Source: Chryseobacterium culicis (lineage in GTDB: Bacteria; Bacteroidota; Bacteroidia; Flavobacteriales; Weeksellaceae). Taken from it: a stretch of 64,000 bases of DNA. The stretch covers positions 1 to 64,000 of the forward strand of contig NZ_PCPP01000004.1 in NCBI RefSeq assembly GCF_002979755.1, given 5' to 3'. Both the position numbers and the translations under genes were made by a program. How positions within the stretch are numbered: the stretch's first letter is position 1; each line of letters begins with the position of its first letter. Shown piece by piece: positions 169 to 10,448 of this stretch. The notes under the pieces were generated by a model. The model searched no databases. It saw only the letters and a list, made by a program, of their open reading frames with translations, and was not told the origin of the DNA.

Positions 169-1491
169 ATGTCAGGAAATATTCTGATCATCGATGATGA
201 GATCAAGCTCCTTAAACTCCTAGGAATGATCCTTTCCCAAGAAAATTTTAATGTAAAAGAAGCTTCTACGGCACGTTCTGCTATGACGATGCTGGAGCAG
301 TATGACTTTGATGTAGTTCTAAGCGATGTACGTCTTCCTGATGCTTTTGGGGTAGAGCTGGTTAGGTCTATTAAAACCAAATATCCTCAGCTGGAAATTA
401 TCCTGATGACAGCATTCGGTAATATTACTGATGCAGTGCAAGCTATGAAAAATGGAGCTTATGATTATCTTGTTAAGGGTGATGATAATGAGAAAATTAT
501 CCCATTGGTGTATAAGGCTCTTGAGAAAGTAAAAGACAACAAGTCAAGAATAGTTCAGCAAATTGTAACGAAAGGATTTGACCAAATCATTGGTAAGTCA
601 CCTTTAATTTTGCAATCTAAAAAACTGGCAGAAAAAGTGGCTCTAACGGATGCAGCGGTTCTTCTTACAGGAGAAACAGGGACTGGGAAAGAGGTTTTTG
701 CGAGTGCTATTCATGAAGGCAGTGACAGAAAGAAGAATAGTTTTGTAGCTATCAATTGCTCTGCATTCAGTAAGGAAATTCTGGAGAGTGAACTTTTTGG
801 TCATAAACAAGGTGCTTTTACCGGTGCTTTGAAAGATAAAAAAGGGCTGATAGAAGAAGCTAATGGAGGGACTTTATTTTTGGATGAAATTGGTGAAATG
901 CCTATAGAACTTCAGGCGAAACTACTCAGAGTTTTGGAAACCAGGGAATTCATCAAAATGGGGGAAACAAAAGTTTCAAGATCCGATTTTAGATTAATTG
1001 CAGCCACCAACAGGGATCTGGAAGGTGAAATAAAGCAGGGGAATTTCAGAGAAGACCTTTATTTCAGACTTAATGTCTTTGAGATCACTCTTCCGGCTTT
1101 AAGAGACAGAAAAGAAGATCTGAAGGCACTTGCGAAGAATTTTGTTGATATTTTTTCACATAAACTTCACCTGTCTTCTGTGCAGGTTGATCCGGATTAT
1201 TATAAAGCTTTAGAGAAAAATGATTGGAAAGGGAATATCCGTGAGTTGAGAAACGCTGTAGAGCGGAGTTTGATTTTAATGGATAACAATATTCTGGATG
1301 CAGAAAGTCTTCCTCATTATTCTGAAAAAAATGCTAAAGAAAGTGATTCTTTAAGTATCAGATCACTGGAAAAAATACATATACAGAAAGTTCTGCAGTA
1401 TACAAAAGGGAACAAAGCAGAAGCAGCCCGTCTACTTGAGATTGGTATAGCCACATTATACCGTAAACTGGAAGAATACGGATTAAAATAA
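169..1491 (+). CDS. Sigma-54 dependent response regulator (NtrC family), likely Kdp regulator
   Basis: A 440-residue two-component regulator with three parts. The receiver domain (about 3-118) has the acidic pair D9/D10, phospho-acceptor D53, T81 and K103. The AAA+ domain has Walker A GETGTGKE at 168-175, the sigma-54 contact loop GAFTGA at 215-220 and Walker B FLDEIGE near 237. A Fis-type helix-turn-helix ends the protein. Such proteins bind enhancer DNA and drive ATP-dependent melting by RpoN polymerase. The gene stands just upstream of the kdp genes, separated by a terminator, and the cluster has no OmpR-type kdpE. The natural partner is the histidine kinase at 8733-10448, so it probably replaces KdpE. 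The pairing is inferred from context; the family assignment is firm. Confidence 0.92.
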   Translation: MSGNILIIDDEIKLLKLLGMILSQENFNVKEASTARSAMTMLEQYDFDVVLSDVRLPDAFGVELVRSIKTKYPQLEIILMTAFGNITDAVQAMKNGAYDYLVKGDDNEKIIPLVYKALEKVKDNKSRIVQQIVTKGFDQIIGKSPLILQSKKLAEKVALTDAAVLLTGETGTGKEVFASAIHEGSDRKKNSFVAINCSAFSKEILESELFGHKQGAFTGALKDKKGLIEEANGGTLFLDEIGEMPIELQAKLLRVLETREFIKMGETKVSRSDFRLIAATNRDLEGEIKQGNFREDLYFRLNVFEITLPALRDRKEDLKALAKNFVDIFSHKLHLSSVQVDPDYYKALEKNDWKGNIRELRNAVERSLILMDNNILDAESLPHYSEKNAKESDSLSIRSLEKIHIQKVLQYTKGNKAEAARLLEIGIATLYRKLEEYGLK

Positions 1492-1510
1492 ATCTTTTAT
1501 CATTTTAATA

Positions 1511-1539
1511 AAGAGCCTATCATTTTGATAGGCTTTTTT
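1511..1539 (+). terminator. Rho-independent terminator after the regulator gene
   Basis: The 7-bp stem GCCTATC/GATAGGC (1515-1521 and 1527-1533) has a 5-nt loop and is followed by a run of six T. It separates the regulator gene from the kdp operon, which therefore needs its own promoter. Confidence 0.85.
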
Positions 1540-1609: not shown

Positions 1610-1626
1610 TGGACTTTCTTTTGGCA
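1610..1626 (+). promoter_or_regulatory. Possible sigma-54 promoter of the kdp operon
   Basis: TGG at 1610-1612 and TTG at 1621-1623 sit exactly where the -24 and -12 blocks of TGGCAC-N5-TTGC would fall. The -12 C is replaced by G (TTGGCA), so the match is imperfect. It would start transcription about 20 bases before the first small ORF, and the neighbouring gene encodes a sigma-54 activator. No TAnnTTTG box is seen here. Confidence 0.35.
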
Positions 1627-1653
1627 TATAGTCTCTGAATAAAATATTTAACA

Positions 1654-1761
1654 ATGACAATTTCAAGAAAAACGTTTAAAAAACGGGAGCATTCGACTTT
1701 GAGTCTGCTGATTGTATCGTATGTATTACTGACTCTTTTAACCCTAATGATTAAGATATGA
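1654..1761 (+). CDS. 35-residue membrane microprotein, first of the kdp operon
   Basis: The ORF begins MTISRKTFKKREHST and continues with one hydrophobic helix of about 19 residues ending in MIKI: a basic N-terminus, then a membrane span, so inside-to-outside insertion is expected. Its stop overlaps the next start in an ATGA at 1758-1761, which suggests translational coupling to the following microprotein. I do not recognise the family. The support is position, coupling and membrane character; at this length chance cannot be excluded. Confidence 0.5.
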   Translation: MTISRKTFKKREHSTLSLLIVSYVLLTLLTLMIKI

Positions 1762-1841
1762 TGCTTATAAGTTTAATTCTGCTTTTTGCAGTATTGTTTT
1801 GGCTTTTATATAAATCAGTTGAATTTTTTGATAGAATATAA
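1758..1841 (+). CDS. 27-residue KdpF-like membrane microprotein
   Basis: A single hydrophobic helix is followed by a short polar tail ending KSVEFFDRI. It overlaps the previous ORF by four bases and ends three bases before the kdpF start, so three tiny membrane ORFs are packed end to end ahead of kdpA. Its shape, one helix plus an aromatic/acidic tail, resembles KdpF, but it lacks the PEKF-type ending. It may be a second small accessory subunit of the Kdp complex; that role is inference. Confidence 0.55.
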   Translation: MMLISLILLFAVLFWLLYKSVEFFDRI

Positions 1842-1844
1842 ATT

Positions 1845-1922
1845 ATGTGGAGTTTATTTTTCCTCTCAATACTTGCCTTTGTGTATATCTGTTATGTTTT
1901 AATAAAACCTGAAAAATTTTAA
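1845..1922 (+). CDS. kdpF: KdpF, small subunit of the potassium-transporting ATPase
   Basis: This 25-residue single-helix peptide ends in YVLIKPEKF, closely matching the P-E-K/R-F ending typical of KdpF, which is about 29 residues in E. coli. KdpF sits at the KdpA interface and stabilises the KdpFABC complex in the inner membrane. The stop at 1920-1922 is six bases before the kdpA ATG, the canonical kdpF-kdpA order. Confidence 0.75.
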   Translation: MWSLFFLSILAFVYICYVLIKPEKF

Positions 1923-1928
1923 ACGATC

Positions 1929-3623
1929 ATGAATACAGAAATTTTAGGCATTATAGCAATGTTTGCTGTCACGTTAGTTATAGGAATATTTTTAGGTAAA
2001 TATATAGCTAATGTCTATGGACACAAAAAGACTTTTCTTGATCCGGTTTTTGAACCTATTGAAAAGTTAATTTATAAATTATCGGGTATTAATCCTACCC
2101 GTCAGATGAATTGGAAACAGAATATGTACGCCATGCTGGCCATTAATCTGATCTGGTTCATCATTGGTTTTCTCCTCTTAATGAATCAGGCTTGGCTTCC
2201 TTTAAATCCAGATGGAAACCCGAATATGTCGCCCGATCTGGCTTTTAATACTACCATTTCATTCTTAGTTAACTGTAATTTACAGCACTATTCAGGAGAA
2301 ACAGGAGTAAGCTATCTGAGCCAGCTTTATCTGATGTTTTTACAGTTTGTAACGGCAGCAACAGGAATGGCGGCAATGGCGGTTCTTTTCAAAGCTTTTA
2401 AAGAAAAAACAAGCACAGAATTAGGGAATTTCTATGATTTTTTTACAAAATCAATGATCAGAATCCTGGTTCCGATAAGTGTAATTGTTGCTTTAATTCT
2501 TTCCATCAACGGAAGCCCGATGACTTTCGAAGGGAAAGATCATATCATAACACTGGAAGGTCAGAAGGTTGATGTTTCCAGAGGTCCTGTATCCGCATTT
2601 GTTGCGATCAAGCATTTGGGAACTAATGGAGGTGGATTTTTCGGAGCAAACTCAGCGCATCCACTTGAAAACCCTAATTATATTACCAATATGACAGAGA
2701 TGATCACTCAAATGATCATTCCATTTGCCTTGGTATTTGCACTGGGTTTTTATCTGAATAAAAGAAAACTTTCATGGGTGATCTTTACTGTAATGACCGT
2801 CGGTTTCCTGGCACTTACCATTCCGAATATCGTGAATGAAACCGGAGGAAATCCTTTAATTACCAAAATGGGAGCAGATAACAGTCTGGGAGCAATGGAA
2901 GGCAAGGAAATCCGCTTTGGTAGTGCAGCATCCGGTTATTGGAGTATTGCCACTACGGTGATTTCTACAGGCTCTGTAAATGCCATGCATGACAGTACGA
3001 TGCCGCTTTCCGGAATGAATGAACTGCTTGCGATGATGATCAACTGTTTCTACGGAGGTTGTGGAGTCGGAATTCTGAACTATTTCATCTTTATTATTCT
3101 GGCAGTATTCATCAGTGGTCTGATGGTAGGAAGGACTCCTGAATTTATGGGTAAAAAGATTGAAGCCAAAGAGATGAAGATTGCGATGATTGTGGCTTTA
3201 TTCCATCCTTTCTTAATTCTTGCAGGAACAGCTTTAACAGCCTACTTACCTGAGTTTGGAGCAAAAACATTGAACAATCCTGGCTTCCATGGTTTTAGTG
3301 AAATGCTGTACGAATTCACTTCTTCAGCAGCCAATAACGGATCAGGATTCGAAGGACTTGGAGATAATACACCTTGGTGGAATATTTCAACGGGAATTGT
3401 ACTGTTACTATCCAGATTCATTCCGATTATTGGACCGGTAGCGATTGCAGGACTATTGGCACAGAAGAAATACATCCCTGAAAGTTCCGGAACCCTAAAA
3501 ACAGATACAGCTACTTTCGGATTTATGACACTGGCAGTGATTCTACTGATTGCAGCACTGTCTTTCTTCCCTGCATTGACATTAGGACCTATCGCAGAGC
3601 AGATCCAGTATTTCTCAAAATAA
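1929..3623 (+). CDS. kdpA: KdpA, potassium-binding channel-like subunit of Kdp ATPase
   Basis: This 564-residue polytopic inner-membrane protein belongs to the K+ transporter superfamily. It has the first pore-loop region around 106-124 and the selectivity-filter motif TNGGGFFG at 232-239, with about ten hydrophobic spans. KdpA selects K+ and passes it to the P-type ATPase subunit KdpB for high-affinity uptake under potassium limitation. Length is normal for the family (557 in E. coli). It follows kdpF by six bases; kdpB comes after an unusually long 174-bp gap for this operon. Confidence 0.97.
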   Translation: MNTEILGIIAMFAVTLVIGIFLGKYIANVYGHKKTFLDPVFEPIEKLIYKLSGINPTRQMNWKQNMYAMLAINLIWFIIGFLLLMNQAWLPLNPDGNPNMSPDLAFNTTISFLVNCNLQHYSGETGVSYLSQLYLMFLQFVTAATGMAAMAVLFKAFKEKTSTELGNFYDFFTKSMIRILVPISVIVALILSINGSPMTFEGKDHIITLEGQKVDVSRGPVSAFVAIKHLGTNGGGFFGANSAHPLENPNYITNMTEMITQMIIPFALVFALGFYLNKRKLSWVIFTVMTVGFLALTIPNIVNETGGNPLITKMGADNSLGAMEGKEIRFGSAASGYWSIATTVISTGSVNAMHDSTMPLSGMNELLAMMINCFYGGCGVGILNYFIFIILAVFISGLMVGRTPEFMGKKIEAKEMKIAMIVALFHPFLILAGTALTAYLPEFGAKTLNNPGFHGFSEMLYEFTSSAANNGSGFEGLGDNTPWWNISTGIVLLLSRFIPIIGPVAIAGLLAQKKYIPESSGTLKTDTATFGFMTLAVILLIAALSFFPALTLGPIAEQIQYFSK

Positions 3624-3797
3624 ATGTGAACATTAAAAATTATAATCAATATTCAACCATTAAGGAAGCTAAAGTTTGAGGAAGCTAGTCTGACACTTAC
3701 TGAAACGTTCACTTAATATTATCCATATCTATCCTTATTATTTGGCAGACCTTGATGGTGATTATTGATTTACAATGATATAAACTCTTTCAAAAAA

Positions 3798-5837
3798 ATG
3801 AAAAATCAGTCACAAACATTGTTTCAAAGAGATTTGGTAAACGAAGCGATAAAACAGTCTTTCGTAAAGCTGAATCCGAAAATTATGTTTAAAAATCCAG
3901 TAATGTTCCTGGTGGAAGTCGGAACAGTTGTCATGTTTATCGTGAGCATGTTCAGCCTTACTGGTGATAAAAGCCAGGGAAGCTTTTCCTATAACTTTTT
4001 AGTATTTATTATTTTATTTTTCACGGTTCTTTTTGCCAATTTTGCAGAAGCTATTGCAGAGGCAAGAGGAAAAGCACAGGCTGATACCCTAAGAAAAACA
4101 AGGGAAGAAACTCCAGCCAAACTAGTGGTTGATAACAAACCCGGATTTCAGGTAGAAACAATGCTGAAAATGTCTGCTGAGATGAAATTAGGGGATATTT
4201 TTCTTTGTGAAGCCGGAGATCAGATTCCAATGGATGGCGAGATCATTGAAGGTCTGGCTACCATTGATGAATCTGCAATTACCGGAGAAAGTGCTCCTGT
4301 AATCCGTGAAGCCGGAGGAGACAAAAGCTCTGTAACAGGCGGTACAAAAGTACTTTCAGACAGAATTAAAGTAAAAGTGACAACAAGACCCGGAGAATCC
4401 TTCTTAGATAAAATGATTGCCCTTGTAGAAGGAGCTTCAAGACAGAAAACACCCAACGAAATCGCATTAACTATACTTTTAGCAGGATTTACGCTTACAT
4501 TTATTATTGTTACCCTCACTTTAAAGCCTTTTGCAGACTACGCGCAGACTCCGATTACCATAGCGGCATTTATATCTCTTTTCGTTTGTCTTATTCCGAC
4601 AACAATCGGAGGTCTGCTTTCTGCAATCGGGATTGCAGGGATGGACAGAGCACTGAGAGCGAATGTGATTACCAAAAGTGGGAAAGCCGTAGAAACGGCA
4701 GGAGATATTGATGTTCTGTTGCTGGATAAAACCGGAACAATCACTATTGGAAACCGTAAGGCAACCCAATTCCATCCAGCTAATGGAATTCAGCTTGAAG
4801 ACTTCATTAAAGCCTCGGCATTAAGTTCTGTGGCTGATGAAACACCGGAAGGAAAATCAATTATTGAACTGAGTGCTTTGAAATCTGAAGACTTGTTGGT
4901 TTCCAATCCTACTTATATTGATTTTACAGCGGAGACCAGAACTTCAGGGATCGATTTTGAAGAAACAAGAATCCGTAAAGGAGCTTATGATACCATAAAA
5001 AAACTGACTGAAAAAGCCGGGAATATCTTCCCTCAGGAAACGCAGGATGCGGTAACCAAAATTTCCGAAAATGGTGGAACGCCTCTTGTAGTTGCTGTTA
5101 ATGAAAAAGTATGGGGCGTTATTGAACTTCAGGATATCATCAAAACAGGAATTCAGGAGCGTTTCCAGAGACTGAGAAAAATGGGCGTGAAAACCGTAAT
5201 GGTAACCGGAGATAATCCCCTGACCGCAAAATTTATTGCAGAAAAAGCAGGAGTAGATGATTTTATTGCCGAAGCCAAGCCTGAAGATAAAATGAATTAT
5301 ATCAAAAAAGAACAGCAGGAAGGTAAGCTGGTAGCCATGATGGGAGACGGTACCAATGATGCTCCGGCACTGGCACAGGCCGATGTAGGCGTAGCAATGA
5401 ACAGCGGAACACAGGCAGCGAAAGAAGCCGGTAACATGGTGGATCTTGATAATGACCCGACAAAGCTGATCGAAATTGTAGAAATCGGAAAACAGCTGCT
5501 GATGACAAGAGGAACATTGACCACTTTCAGTATTGCAAACGATGTTGCAAAATATTTTGCCATTATTCCTGCGCTCTTTATCACTTTTATTCCTTCGCTT
5601 CAGAAGCTTAATATTATGAACCTTCACAGTCCGGAAACTGCCATATTATCGGCCGTTATCTTCAATGCGGTGATCATTCCGTTCCTGATTCCGCTGGCCT
5701 TGAAAGGAGTAGCTTACAAGCCAATCGGTGCAAGTGCGTTATTGAGAAGAAACCTTTTGATCTACGGTCTGGGCGGAGTAATTGTTCCGTTCATTGGGAT
5801 CAAAATCATTGATCTGGTAATCAGTTTATTCTATTAA
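3798..5837 (+). CDS. kdpB: KdpB, P-type ATPase catalytic subunit
   Basis: The 679-residue P-type ATPase carries the actuator motif TGES at 162-165, the phosphorylation motif DKTGT with Asp310, and the hinge motif GDGTNDAP in the last third. It hydrolyses ATP to power K+ import through KdpA. An upstream TTG at 3765 would add 11 residues, but ATG 3798 (MKNQSQTLF) gives a length close to E. coli KdpB (682), so I prefer it. The 174-bp spacer before it contains a tandem GGAAGCTA motif near 3665-3685 and no evident terminator, so co-transcription with kdpA is still likely. Confidence 0.96.
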
Positions 5838-5847
5838 AATTTAAAAA

Positions 5848-6405
5848 ATGAAAAATCATATTGTTTCAGCATTCAGATTAACTCTTGTAATGTTGGTGGT
5901 TACAGGTATTTATCTGGCTGTTGTATACGGAGGTTCTAAAATACTTCCCAACAAAGGAAACGGAGAAATTGTGTATGATAAAGGGCAGAAGTTTTATGCC
6001 AATATCGGACAGGAATTTAAATCTGAAAATTACTTTCATGGCCGACCGTCTTCAGTCAATTATAATGCTGCAGGAAGTGGAGGAAGCAACAAAGGTCCAA
6101 GTAACGATGAATATCTGGAAACGGTACAGAAAAGAATTGACACGTTAAAAATGGAGAATCCTGAAATGAGTGGTGTTAAAGTTCCTGTAGAACTGGTGAC
6201 GGCAAGCGGAAGCGGTCTGGATCCGGATATTTCTGAAGAAGGAGCATTATATCAGATAAAGAGAATTGCAAAAGTGAGAAATGTTTCAGAGGAACAGATC
6301 AAAAACTTGATTTATACCCAAATTGAAAAGCCTTTCTTAGGTCTTTTCGGACCATCAAAAGTAAATGTGCTGAAGCTTAATATTGCTTTAGACCAATTAA
6401 AATAG
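5848..6405 (+). CDS. kdpC: KdpC, accessory subunit of Kdp ATPase
   Basis: This 185-residue protein has one N-terminal membrane helix (about 8-28) and a periplasmic-side domain with the family features YFHGRPS and the glycine/serine-rich segment after it. The DPDIS motif and the C-terminal GPSKVNVLKLN segment also match KdpC. KdpC stabilises the KdpFABC complex and raises its K+ affinity. It starts 10 bases after the kdpB stop, so the two are in one operon. Confidence 0.95.
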   Translation: MKNHIVSAFRLTLVMLVVTGIYLAVVYGGSKILPNKGNGEIVYDKGQKFYANIGQEFKSENYFHGRPSSVNYNAAGSGGSNKGPSNDEYLETVQKRIDTLKMENPEMSGVKVPVELVTASGSGLDPDISEEGALYQIKRIAKVRNVSEEQIKNLIYTQIEKPFLGLFGPSKVNVLKLNIALDQLK

Positions 6406-6473: not shown

Positions 6474-7559
6474 GTGAAAAAATATCTAGCTATAAGTGCA
6501 CTATTAGGATTATTTTTAACAAAAGCACAGTCATCAGATTCATTGAAAACAGGGAATAAAGTTACATTTTCCGCTTATGCAGAATTGTTTTATACCTATG
6601 ATTTTAATGAACCGGGAAATCATATCCGTCAGAATTTCTTATACTCCTATAACAGGCATAATGAAATGAACCTCAATCTGGGATTGGTTAAAGCCAATTA
6701 TCAAAGTGAAAATATCCGCGCCAATGTAGCTTTAATGGCCGGAACTTATGCCCAGGATAATATGGCTGCTGAACAAAATGCACTGCGCTATGTAAACGAA
6801 GCCAATGTAGGGATCAAAATATCGAAAAATAAAAATTTATGGATTGATGCAGGGATCATGCCTTCTCATATTGGCTGGGAAAGTGCTATAGGAAAGGATA
6901 ATATCAACCTGACCAGAAGTTTTGCAGCAGAAAATTCTCCTTATTTTGAAACAGGTGCTAAAATTTCTTATACCTCAGATAATGGGAAATGGTTTTTAAG
7001 CGGATTAGTCCTGAATGGCTGGCAACGTATCGCTAAACCGGAAGGAAACCAAAGTATTTCTTTCGGACATCAGGTGACTTATAAACCAAATGAAAAAATC
7101 ACGCTGAACAGCAGCTCATTTATTGGAAATGATAAAGCAAAGGATGATAAAAGAATGCGTTATTTCCATGATTTGTATGGAAGTTTTCAGCTGACAGATC
7201 AGTTTTCCGCGGTCTTGGGATTTGATATCGGAGCAGAGCAGAAATCAAAAGGAAGCGAGCAGTATAACATCTGGTACAGCCCGAATGTTCTTATGAAATA
7301 TCAGTTTGATGGCAAATGGGCGCTGGCTGGAAGATTAGAATATTACAATGATAAAAATGGGGCTATTATCAACACCGGAACTCCAAATGGATTTCAGACC
7401 TTTGGATATTCTCTCAACGTAGATTATGCGATCTTTAAAAATGTGGTTTTCCGTACAGAGGCAAGAGGTTTTACTGCGAAAGATGCCATTTTTGCAAAAA
7501 ATGATGAATTTAAAAAAGGAAACTTCTTCATTACAACAAGCCTTTCAGCCTGGTTTTAG
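6474..7559 (+). CDS. Outer-membrane beta-barrel porin associated with kdp
   Basis: This 361-residue secreted protein starts at a GTG with a clear signal peptide (MKKYLAISALLGLFLTKAQS). The rest alternates aromatic-rich beta strands and polar turns and ends in a terminal Trp-Phe, typical of an outer-membrane barrel (Bacteroidetes porin/BBP2-like). It lies between kdpC and the KdpD-like gene in the same orientation with short gaps. A role in bringing K+ across the outer membrane is plausible from position but unproven. No ATG start would preserve the signal peptide. Confidence 0.8.
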   Translation: MKKYLAISALLGLFLTKAQSSDSLKTGNKVTFSAYAELFYTYDFNEPGNHIRQNFLYSYNRHNEMNLNLGLVKANYQSENIRANVALMAGTYAQDNMAAEQNALRYVNEANVGIKISKNKNLWIDAGIMPSHIGWESAIGKDNINLTRSFAAENSPYFETGAKISYTSDNGKWFLSGLVLNGWQRIAKPEGNQSISFGHQVTYKPNEKITLNSSSFIGNDKAKDDKRMRYFHDLYGSFQLTDQFSAVLGFDIGAEQKSKGSEQYNIWYSPNVLMKYQFDGKWALAGRLEYYNDKNGAIINTGTPNGFQTFGYSLNVDYAIFKNVVFRTEARGFTAKDAIFAKNDEFKKGNFFITTSLSAWF

Positions 7560-7616
7560 GAGTCAGCTTAACCACGATTAAAGGTGTTTAAAGTAAAATT
7601 AAAAAGAATAAAATCA

Positions 7617-8726
7617 ATGTCATCAGCAAAAGATTTTTTAGAACTTATCCAGAAATCCCGCAAAGGAAAATTCAAAATTTATATCGGGATGAGTGCAGGC
7701 GTAGGAAAGAGTTTCCGTATGCTTCAGGAAGCACATTCTCTTTTGCGAAATGGCATTGATGTAAAGATTGGGTATATTGAAACCCATGGCCGTGAAGAAA
7801 CCGAAGCTCTGGTAGAAGGGCTTCCTCAAATTGAAAGAAAATCCGTTTTTTATAAAGGAAAAAACCTTGAAGAAATGGATCTTCAGGCCATTATCAATGA
7901 GCATCCTGAGGTTGTTCTGGTAGATGAGCTGGCTCATACCAATGTGGAAGGTTCTAAAAATAAAAAAAGATGGCAGGATGTACTGGAAATCCTGGATAAC
8001 GGGATCAATGTCATCAGTGCTATGAATATCCAGCACATTGAAAGTCTGAATGAAGAGGTAAAGAAAATTACAGGAGTAGAAGTAGCAGAGAGGGTTCCTG
8101 ATAAAATACTGGCACTTGCCGATGAAGTGGTGAATATTGACCTTACGGCTGATGAACTGCTGACCCGTTTAAAAGAAGGAAAGATTTACAAAAAAGAAAA
8201 AATTCAAACGGCACTCAGTAATTTTTTCCAGGGCGGACATATTCTTCAGCTTCGTGAGCTGGCTTTAAAAGAAGTAGCCACCCATGTAGAAAGAAAGGTA
8301 GAAACAGAGATTAAAACTGAAAATTTTAAACCGATAAAATTCCTGGCCTGTATCAGCAGTAATGAGAAGATTGCCAAAACAATTATTCGTAAGACTGCAA
8401 GATTAGCCAGCTATTATAACAGTCCGTGGACGGTTTTATATGTTCAGAAGCCCTCTGAAAATCCGGAAAAAATAGCGTTGGATAAACAGCGGTATTTAAT
8501 TAATAATTTTAATTTAGCACAGGAATTAGGGGCAAAAGTAGTCCGGATCAAAGAAAGCAGTGTTCATAACGGAATTCTGGAATATGTGATTGCTCATAAT
8601 ATAACAACGGTCTGCATTGGGAAGCCTCATGCCAGTTTCTGGCAGCGGATGTTGGGGTACAGCTGGATCTATACTCTGATGAACAGATTGAATGAGAGAC
8701 AGATAGATATTATTATTTTATCTTAA
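7617..8726 (+). CDS. KdpD N-terminal sensor module (KdpD + USP domains), separate from the kinase
   Basis: The protein has 369 residues from ATG 7617; an in-frame GTG at 7584 would add 11. It holds the KdpD nucleotide-binding domain with Walker A GMSAGVGKS near residue 25 and the Walker-B-like VLVDELAHTN near 100. A universal-stress-protein-like domain fills about 240-369. In E. coli these are fused to the KdpD histidine kinase; here the protein stops after the USP domain and the kinase is the next gene, 6 bases away. It is cytoplasmic and is expected to sense K+ or nucleotide state and work through the neighbouring kinase. Confidence 0.9.
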   Translation: MSSAKDFLELIQKSRKGKFKIYIGMSAGVGKSFRMLQEAHSLLRNGIDVKIGYIETHGREETEALVEGLPQIERKSVFYKGKNLEEMDLQAIINEHPEVVLVDELAHTNVEGSKNKKRWQDVLEILDNGINVISAMNIQHIESLNEEVKKITGVEVAERVPDKILALADEVVNIDLTADELLTRLKEGKIYKKEKIQTALSNFFQGGHILQLRELALKEVATHVERKVETEIKTENFKPIKFLACISSNEKIAKTIIRKTARLASYYNSPWTVLYVQKPSENPEKIALDKQRYLINNFNLAQELGAKVVRIKESSVHNGILEYVIAHNITTVCIGKPHASFWQRMLGYSWIYTLMNRLNERQIDIIILS

Positions 8727-8732
8727 AAAATA

Positions 8733-10448
8733 ATGAAACTTAAAACGAAACTTACCTTAGGCGTTGGCCTTTTATTTCTGCTGATTGTTCTGCTTTCAGT
8801 GATAGGTTCTGTATATATTAATAAATTAAAATCTGATACTGAAAAAATCCTTACTGCCAATTACAACAGTCTGGAGTTTTCCAAAAATATGCTTCTGGCA
8901 CTGGATAATATCAGTACTGACAGTACCGTTGCGGTAGCAGATTTTCAGAAAAATAATAAACTTCAGGAAAAAAATCTTACTGAATTCGGAGAAAAAGAAG
9001 CCACTCAGAATCTGAATCTGCATTTCAACAGCTATCTGAAAGCTCCTGATATTCATAAAGAGAAACTCATCCGTGAAGATCTGTCCAAGATTATGTCTTT
9101 GAATATGAAAGGGATAGAACGAAAGAGTGATATCGCCATCATTACAGCAGAAAATGCCACTTTCTGGATTGTAAGTTTAGGAACGGTGTGCTTTCTGATT
9201 GCTTTTATTCTGCTTTTCAATTTACCACAAACGATTGCAGAACCTATCAATCAGCTTACTTTCAGTATCAAACAAATTGCTGATAAAAATTATAGTGAAA
9301 GAGTTCATTTTAAAGGAAGTGAGGAATTCAACAGCCTGGCAGAATCATTCAACAGTATGGCGGAGAAACTTCAGGAGTACGAAAGCAGTACACTTTCCAA
9401 GCAACTGATGGATAAAAAACGGATCGAAACATTGGTTAACAATATGCACGATGCGGTGATTGGGCTGGATGAAAATCATTTTATCTACATGATCAATGAT
9501 GAAGCTTTGAAGATTACGAACCTTCACAAGGAAGAAATTATTGGAAAAACTGCCCATGAAGTAGCTATCAACAATGATCTGATACGTGAACTGCTGAAAA
9601 ATATAGACCATCCGGTAAAAGATCCGATTAAGATTGTCCGTGATAACAAAGAAAACTATTTTGAACAGGATGTTATCCCCATCAATATAGTAAAGACAGG
9701 CGAAAAAGAGAAAAAATATATCGGAAAGGTAATCTTGTTGAGAAATATTACGCCTTTTAAAGAACTTGATTTTGCTAAAACCAATTTCATTGCAACAATA
9801 TCCCACGAACTGAAAACTCCAATTTCAGCTATAAAAATGGGCGTACAGCTTCTTGGGAACCAAAAATTCGGAGAACTGAACGAACAACAGCAGGAATTAT
9901 TGAAAAGCATTAATGAAGACGGACAGCGTTTACTGGATATCACAGGTGAGCTGCTTAACCTTTCCCAGGTAGAATCCGGAAATATAAGACTAACAGTGGA
10001 AAAATGCTCTCCTAAAGAAATTGTACAGACCGCTGTAAAAAATGTTGAAAAGCTTGCGGAACAGAAAAATATCTCCATCAGTACAGAATATCTGCTAGAA
10101 GATAGTGATGCCGTGACAGCAGATTTTGATAAAACAGTCTGGGTGATGAATAACTTTCTAACGAATGCCGTAAAGCACTCTTTCCAGGATGAAAATATTA
10201 AGATCGTGGTAGAAAAACTGAATTCATTGATTCAGTTCAGCATTATTGATACCGGAAGCGGGATTGATGAAAAATACCACCGCCAGATCTTTGACCGTTA
10301 TTTTCAGGTTCCCGGAGAACATCAGAATGGAACAGGCTTAGGTTTGGCCATTTCAAAAAACTTCATTGAGAAACAACATGGAGAAATAGGAGTGAAGAGT
10401 TCTCTGAATAATGGAAGTACTTTTTACTTCAGACTGCCGGTTTCATAA
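8733..10448 (+). CDS. Sensor histidine kinase of the split KdpD system
   Basis: The domain order in this 571-residue membrane kinase is: TM1 (about 7-29), a roughly 110-residue periplasmic domain, TM2 (about 139-160), HAMP linker, PAS-like domain, HisKA and HATPase_c. HisKA contains FIATISHELKTP with the phospho-accepting His. HATPase_c shows the N box NNFLTNAVKHS, G1 box DTGSGID and G2 box GTGLGLAI. It follows the KdpD-N gene by 6 bases. Together they probably make up the functional KdpD, signalling to the sigma-54 regulator at the other end of the cluster. Confidence 0.92.
   Translation: MKLKTKLTLGVGLLFLLIVLLSVIGSVYINKLKSDTEKILTANYNSLEFSKNMLLALDNISTDSTVAVADFQKNNKLQEKNLTEFGEKEATQNLNLHFNSYLKAPDIHKEKLIREDLSKIMSLNMKGIERKSDIAIITAENATFWIVSLGTVCFLIAFILLFNLPQTIAEPINQLTFSIKQIADKNYSERVHFKGSEEFNSLAESFNSMAEKLQEYESSTLSKQLMDKKRIETLVNNMHDAVIGLDENHFIYMINDEALKITNLHKEEIIGKTAHEVAINNDLIRELLKNIDHPVKDPIKIVRDNKENYFEQDVIPINIVKTGEKEKKYIGKVILLRNITPFKELDFAKTNFIATISHELKTPISAIKMGVQLLGNQKFGELNEQQQELLKSINEDGQRLLDITGELLNLSQVESGNIRLTVEKCSPKEIVQTAVKNVEKLAEQKNISISTEYLLEDSDAVTADFDKTVWVMNNFLTNAVKHSFQDENIKIVVEKLNSLIQFSIIDTGSGIDEKYHRQIFDRYFQVPGEHQNGTGLGLAISKNFIEKQHGEIGVKSSLNNGSTFYFRLPVS

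Follow-up and report, generated by a model that had tools for sequence, protein, structure and literature searches.

KdpFABC is a model P-type ATPase and channel hybrid, with a subunit list that was fixed from Escherichia coli. Small partners with a single transmembrane (TM) helix that bind and tune a large membrane complex are exemplified by AcrZ on AcrB and CydX on cytochrome bd, and single-TM regulatory peptides encoded together with their target system are equally known, as with MgrB and PhoQ. KdpF, encoded directly before kdpA, is a stabilising subunit of the E. coli Kdp pump (Gassel et al., 1999, cited in PMC12629597). The mycobacterial KdpF has other reported partners and binds KdpD in a two-hybrid test, and KdpF was found to be without regulatory effect on kdp expression (PMC3618439).

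In the window, by which the whole stretch of 64,000 nucleotides of Chryseobacterium culicis DNA that was analysed is meant, kdpA is preceded by three abutting open reading frames (ORFs) of 35, 27 and 25 codons at positions 1654–1922 (Table 1). This end-to-end arrangement had been described in an original prediction made from the letters of the DNA, and the ORF coordinates agree with it, including the ATGA overlap of ORF1 and ORF2 at 1758–1761 and the three bases, ATT, which separate ORF2 from ORF3. Equally, the identity of ORF3, located directly before kdpA, as KdpF holds, by a PF09604 score of 21.8 bits that exceeds the gathering cut-off of 21.2 bits by a narrow margin; against TIGR02115 the score is 21.3 bits, under the cut-off of 26.85. 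That only KdpF of the three is known was likewise correct with respect to the family libraries, as no Pfam or NCBIfam model is reached above threshold by the ORF1 or the ORF2 family: ORF1 matched none of the families of Pfam and NCBIfam, PF09604 included, and none of 44 ORF2 family members matched PF09604 or the NCBIfam models. A literature search, in which subscription journals were thinly covered, returned no paper describing ORF1 or ORF2, and the PLSDB table for a Parabacteroides kdp plasmid, itself incomplete, lists neither ORF2 nor kdpF. Homology of ORF2 with solved structures was rejected, the single match to an ExbB TM segment at E 1.1 being meaningless. The locus illustrates how a gene shorter than 30 codons can be missed by annotation, even where the operon is a textbook case.

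Table 1. Features of the kdp locus in the window.
Feature	Position	Strand	Description and basis
NtrC-type sigma-54-dependent response regulator	169..1491	+	Pfam Response_reg, Sigma54_activat, HTH_8
Intrinsic terminator of response-regulator gene	1510..1538	+	13-pair stem with T-run; RNA fold z = -4.8
Putative sigma-54 (-24/-12) promoter of kdp unit	1621..1637	+	TTGGCATATAGTCTCTG; alignment of 92 upstream regions
ORF1	1654..1761	+	35-aa single-TM microprotein, MTISRKTFKKREHSTLSLLIVSYVLLTLLTLMIKI; basic N-terminus; first cistron
ORF2	1758..1841	+	27-aa single-TM microprotein, MMLISLILLFAVLFWLLYKSVEFFDRI; start overlaps ORF1 stop (ATGA)
kdpF (ORF3)	1845..1922	+	25 aa, MWSLFFLSILAFVYICYVLIKPEKF; PF09604
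kdpA	1929..3623	+	PF03814 762 bits, TIGR00680 618 bits
kdpB	3798..5837	+	ORF translation; TGES and DKTGT motifs spotted by eye
kdpC	5848..6405	+	ORF position and sequence
BBP2 outer-membrane porin	6474..7559		PF07642, 350 bits
Soluble KdpD-N and Usp-like protein	7584..8726		PF02702
HAMP-PAS histidine kinase	8733..10448		

Upstream of the kdp unit, the NtrC-type regulator replaces the OmpR-type KdpE. The start of kdpB is the ATG at 3798, the mechanical ORF opening earlier at a TTG at 3765. On the 3' side of kdpC follow, in this order, the genes for the BBP2 porin, the soluble KdpD-N/Usp protein and the HAMP-PAS histidine kinase, such that KdpD is split into two separate proteins and the porin gene, flanked by kdpC and the KdpD-N gene, lies inside the kdp cluster. 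In many loci the contig ends about 2–3 kb 5' of kdpA, as it does at position 1 of the window (further examples are L032–L034 and L036–L057), which suggests a repeated element at this place, perhaps an rRNA operon.

The position of the small ORFs and a predicted promoter support that ORF1 and ORF2 lie within the kdp transcription unit. The terminator that follows the regulator gene places the small ORFs probably off the regulator's transcript. The block TTTTGGCA is nearly invariant across 92 loci, usually 32–36 nt 5' of the ORF1 ATG, with a -12 half that is weak in the window; if this element is a promoter, the transcript would start some 6 nt 5' of ORF1. In the wider Bacteroidota, 24 of 68 loci have a sigma-54-like site (GG plus a match to no fewer than 9 of 11 consensus positions) within 100 nt 5' of ORF2, and none has one on the opposite strand; at 10 of 11 positions the numbers for the same interval are 10 and none. 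Such sites fit the sigma-54 activator encoded next door and, as predicted promoters just 5' of ORF2, point to ORF2 as a cistron of the kdp operon.

Retention and selection were assessed in a sample of 110 kdp loci, with few exceptions from Chryseobacterium and Elizabethkingia, of which 94 have a distinct upstream sequence and 92 could be scored. The reading frame is intact in 92/92 of these for ORF1 and in 91/92 for ORF2, and the ATGA junction is kept in 91/92. Loss of frame with kdpF kept, named in the original prediction as an argument against the genes, was thus seen once in 92 loci and never in ORF1: in a metagenome-assembled genome (G034, L017/L060), ORF2 has a 1-nt frameshift close to its beginning. 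In a neutral simulation that allowed substitutions only, without indels, along a tree built on the third codon positions of kdpA, the frame of ORF1 or ORF2 remained intact in a mean of 3–4% of leaves, in 22–27% at 0.3x rate and in 58% in the best single run. The dN/dS ratio amounts to 0.273 for ORF1 and 0.148 for ORF2; KdpF has 0.053 and KdpA, over its first 100 codons, 0.059. Shifted frames give 0.6–1.8, with 0.61 and 1.57 for the two alternative frames of ORF1. By retention and dN/dS, both extra ORFs are genes under purifying selection and not chance occurrences.

Conservation of all three peptides upstream of kdpA had been proposed as a check, with the two additional ORFs treated alike. Both are indeed conserved, but they are not equivalent: ORF2 extends over the phylum, whereas ORF1 is bound to one lineage. 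In kdpA upstream regions gathered across the class Bacteroidia and the phylum Bacteroidota, the ORF2 profile recognises the peptide ahead of kdpF at 147 of the 153 distinct kdp loci in a first set, which spans dozens of families, in most at a spacing to kdpF between -4 and +25 nt, with a conserved C-terminal half of the form (C/L)F(W/A)LFYKS(I/V)xxF(E/D)KI. Nearly every kdpA-bearing Chryseobacterium genome has it. Weaker forms occur in further Bacteroidota with a KdpA about 51–61% identical to that of the window (L172–L180), and profile search of the upstream regions found none where KdpA is only 40–50% identical; a few kdp loci of the same clade (L170, L171, L191, L192, L196) are equally without a recognisable ORF2. 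In 396 Bacteroidia genomes, all matches of the ORF2 profile with E of 1.1e-5 or lower, after which a gap follows to the next match at 1.6e-3, are located at kdp loci, with the exception of two genomes without kdpA. In one of these (L197), ORF2 adjoins a response regulator and a truncated kdpF, in the other (L198) a DUF7674 gene, a porin and a histidine kinase, the porin neighbourhood resembling that of the window. These two copies look like relics of kdpFABC loss, and their retention also fits a role outside the pump. Judged from this distribution, ORF2 is ancient, reaching across the class Bacteroidia and beyond it within the phylum. The DUF7674 protein lies just 5' of ORF2 in L198, the one locus in which it was scored (PF24722; 3818–4144, minus strand), and DUF7674-like ORFs are found at this place in many other Bacteroidia (L116, L119, L128, L135, L153); in L116 the overlap with ORF2 is 4 nt, in the slot taken by ORF1 in Chryseobacterium.

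ORF1, on the other hand, is recognisable by profile search of the wider loci only in Chryseobacterium and Elizabethkingia, the single extra locus being that of a more distant Chryseobacterium (L111). Its basic N-terminus suggests that it is probably oriented with the N-terminus inside. As the start of the predicted transcript, it would probably pass its ribosomes on to ORF2 at the overlapping ATGA. It is a genuine, selected and lineage-specific first cistron with an uncertain role, for which the case for function is weaker than for ORF2. Other lineages have different one-TM ORFs of 35–46 aa with basic N-termini at varying positions around kdpF (L118, L124, L133, L158, L193, L194, and between kdpF and kdpA in L112 and L114), several of which end K-rich, for example with YIVxxKxKxLFK.

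The linkage of ORF2 to kdp, its position beside kdpF, its one-helix anatomy and its conserved, presumably cytoplasmic-side end are best explained by an accessory subunit. We therefore consider it rather probable that ORF2 is an extra KdpF-like single-helix subunit of the Bacteroidota KdpFABC. ORF1 is a second, lineage-restricted microprotein; for ORF2, genomic linkage and analogy with KdpF make the subunit role the most likely one. ORF2 would be translated from the mRNA of the kdp operon in coupling with kdpF, would insert as a single membrane helix with its N-terminus outside and its C-terminus inside, and the end FYKSIxxFEKI may pack against membrane helices of the pump, which binding might stabilise or tune. 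In favour of such a subunit, the frame of ORF2 is kept under selection, tied to kdp, next to kdpF and often right after a predicted sigma-54-type promoter; by analogy, the neighbouring KdpF of the same size and type stabilises the E. coli pump, and ORFs in the same slot occur in other phyla. Against it, ORF2 is under weaker constraint than KdpF (dN/dS 0.15 versus 0.05), is missing in recognisable form from the same-clade loci mentioned above and persists in two genomes after kdpFABC loss. Equally, a helical-face periodicity of its conservation, which would have favoured a packed interface, is not significant (p 0.73), the E. coli pump works without ORF2, and further partners of KdpF have been reported in mycobacteria (PMC3618439). 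As ORF2 has been kept next to the pump across almost all Bacteroidota, it probably represents a component of the pump that has been overlooked and that E. coli does not have. It would fit a kind already known, the single-helix transporter companion; AcrZ and CydX resemble it in this respect, although no sequence relation is claimed.

The main rival to the accessory subunit is a regulatory membrane peptide, whereby ORF2, and also ORF1, would be produced along with the pump and exert feedback by binding to the sensor kinase or to a protease, as MgrB does on PhoQ. Like MgrB, ORF2 is a single-TM peptide encoded within a regulon on which it possibly acts; the two-hybrid binding of mycobacterial KdpF to KdpD (PMC3618439) and the two genomes that keep ORF2 after kdpFABC loss, one of them with porin and histidine kinase alongside, point in the same direction. 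However, the position of ORF2 is fixed by kdpF and not by the kinase, linking it to the pump genes, and KdpF had no regulatory effect on kdp expression (PMC3618439); a regulator seems unlikely.

Alternatively, the two ORFs might encode leader peptides that bring ribosomes to kdpF and kdpA or serve attenuation, their own sequences being irrelevant. The very short predicted 5' untranslated region before ORF1 as the first cistron and the preserved ATGA and near-abutting junctions would suit such leaders. Yet the amino acids of ORF2 are conserved phylum-wide while its synonymous sites are free (pN 0.12 versus pS 0.52), and at the RNA level neither a conserved structure (alifold z -0.36) nor an above-threshold Rfam match was found, which together argue that selection acts on the peptides. 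A leader or attenuator RNA was thus rejected and leader peptides as a whole are improbable; for ORF1 alone, with its dN/dS of 0.27, they are harder to exclude.

As a sub-case of the accessory subunit, ORF2 could have originated as a paralogue by tandem duplication of kdpF and now occupy another, similar site of the complex. Both peptides have about 25–30 aa, one TM helix and a short charged C-terminal end (FEKI in ORF2, PEKF in KdpF), and ORF2 abuts kdpF. On the other hand, the motif FYKSIxxFEKI differs from YVLxKPEKF of KdpF, ORF2 matches neither PF09604 nor TIGR02115, the former without exception in its family, and it occurs in addition to kdpF and is absent from E. coli. Profile–profile comparison gives a probability of 39% over 18 hydrophobic columns, about that of a comparison with an unrelated group (30%); a duplication of kdpF is improbable. 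That ORF1 and ORF2 are chance ORFs, for which the AT-rich 5' region with its common random ORFs of 20–40 codons would allow, has a negligible probability and is refuted by frames that stay intact in 92/92 and 91/92 loci where neutrality predicts 3–4%, by dN/dS and by the phylum-wide matches of the ORF2 profile.

The accessory subunit might have counterparts beyond the Bacteroidota. Plasmid-borne kdp operons of Rhizobium, Sinorhizobium, Shinella, Acetobacter, Paracoccus, Phenylobacterium, Novosphingobium, Caballeronia, Mycetohabitans, Deinococcus and Listeria, alpha- and betaproteobacteria among them, have a single-TM ORF of 26–35 aa directly before kdpF, often overlapping it; the examined E. 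coli and Halobacterium records have no such ORF. ORF2 is itself of this description, directly before kdpF at coupled spacing, with 26–35 aa and one TM helix, and shares the charged C-terminal end. The peptides of the other phyla have the consensus MxDxxYL...CDxL, with an Asp at core position 2 that is invariant there but not in ORF2. An hhalign comparison gives 30% probability, and a profile of the foreign peptides scores ORF2s far higher than other fragments, its 7 best of 4678 all being ORF2s, yet KdpF scores similarly on average. The 34-aa look-alike of Mycetohabitans (WP_212667346.1), annotated as 'potassium ABC transporter ATPase', retrieved by tblastn pieces from Rhizobium and Sinorhizobium with insignificant E of 3–9, several of which lie at kdpF or just 5' of kdpA. 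Homology between ORF2 and these peptides is suggestive only. It is a tentative and somewhat doubtful extension that ORF2 and the proteobacterial, Deinococcus and Listeria look-alikes form one ancient family, a fifth subunit of most bacterial Kdp pumps lost in the enterobacterial lineage; if so, the solved KdpFABC structures, being of the E. coli pump, would be without that subunit. The presence of ORF2 throughout its phylum and its apparent match in others suggest an unstudied Kdp part in many bacteria.

A 'kdpZ' before kdpF of Alicyclobacillus found no confirmation in the literature search. In Caulobacter, a 'structured 5' UTR' of about 100 nt has been reported before kdpF (PMC8552747), at about the position of a 27-aa ORF, MLDIIYILTGILIFGLFAGYAAALRRL, in its relative Phenylobacterium (L205, -169 to -85 relative to kdpA). 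Rhizobium ruizarguesonis (L211, 2696–2851) has an annotated hypothetical protein of 51 aa between kdpA and kdpB.
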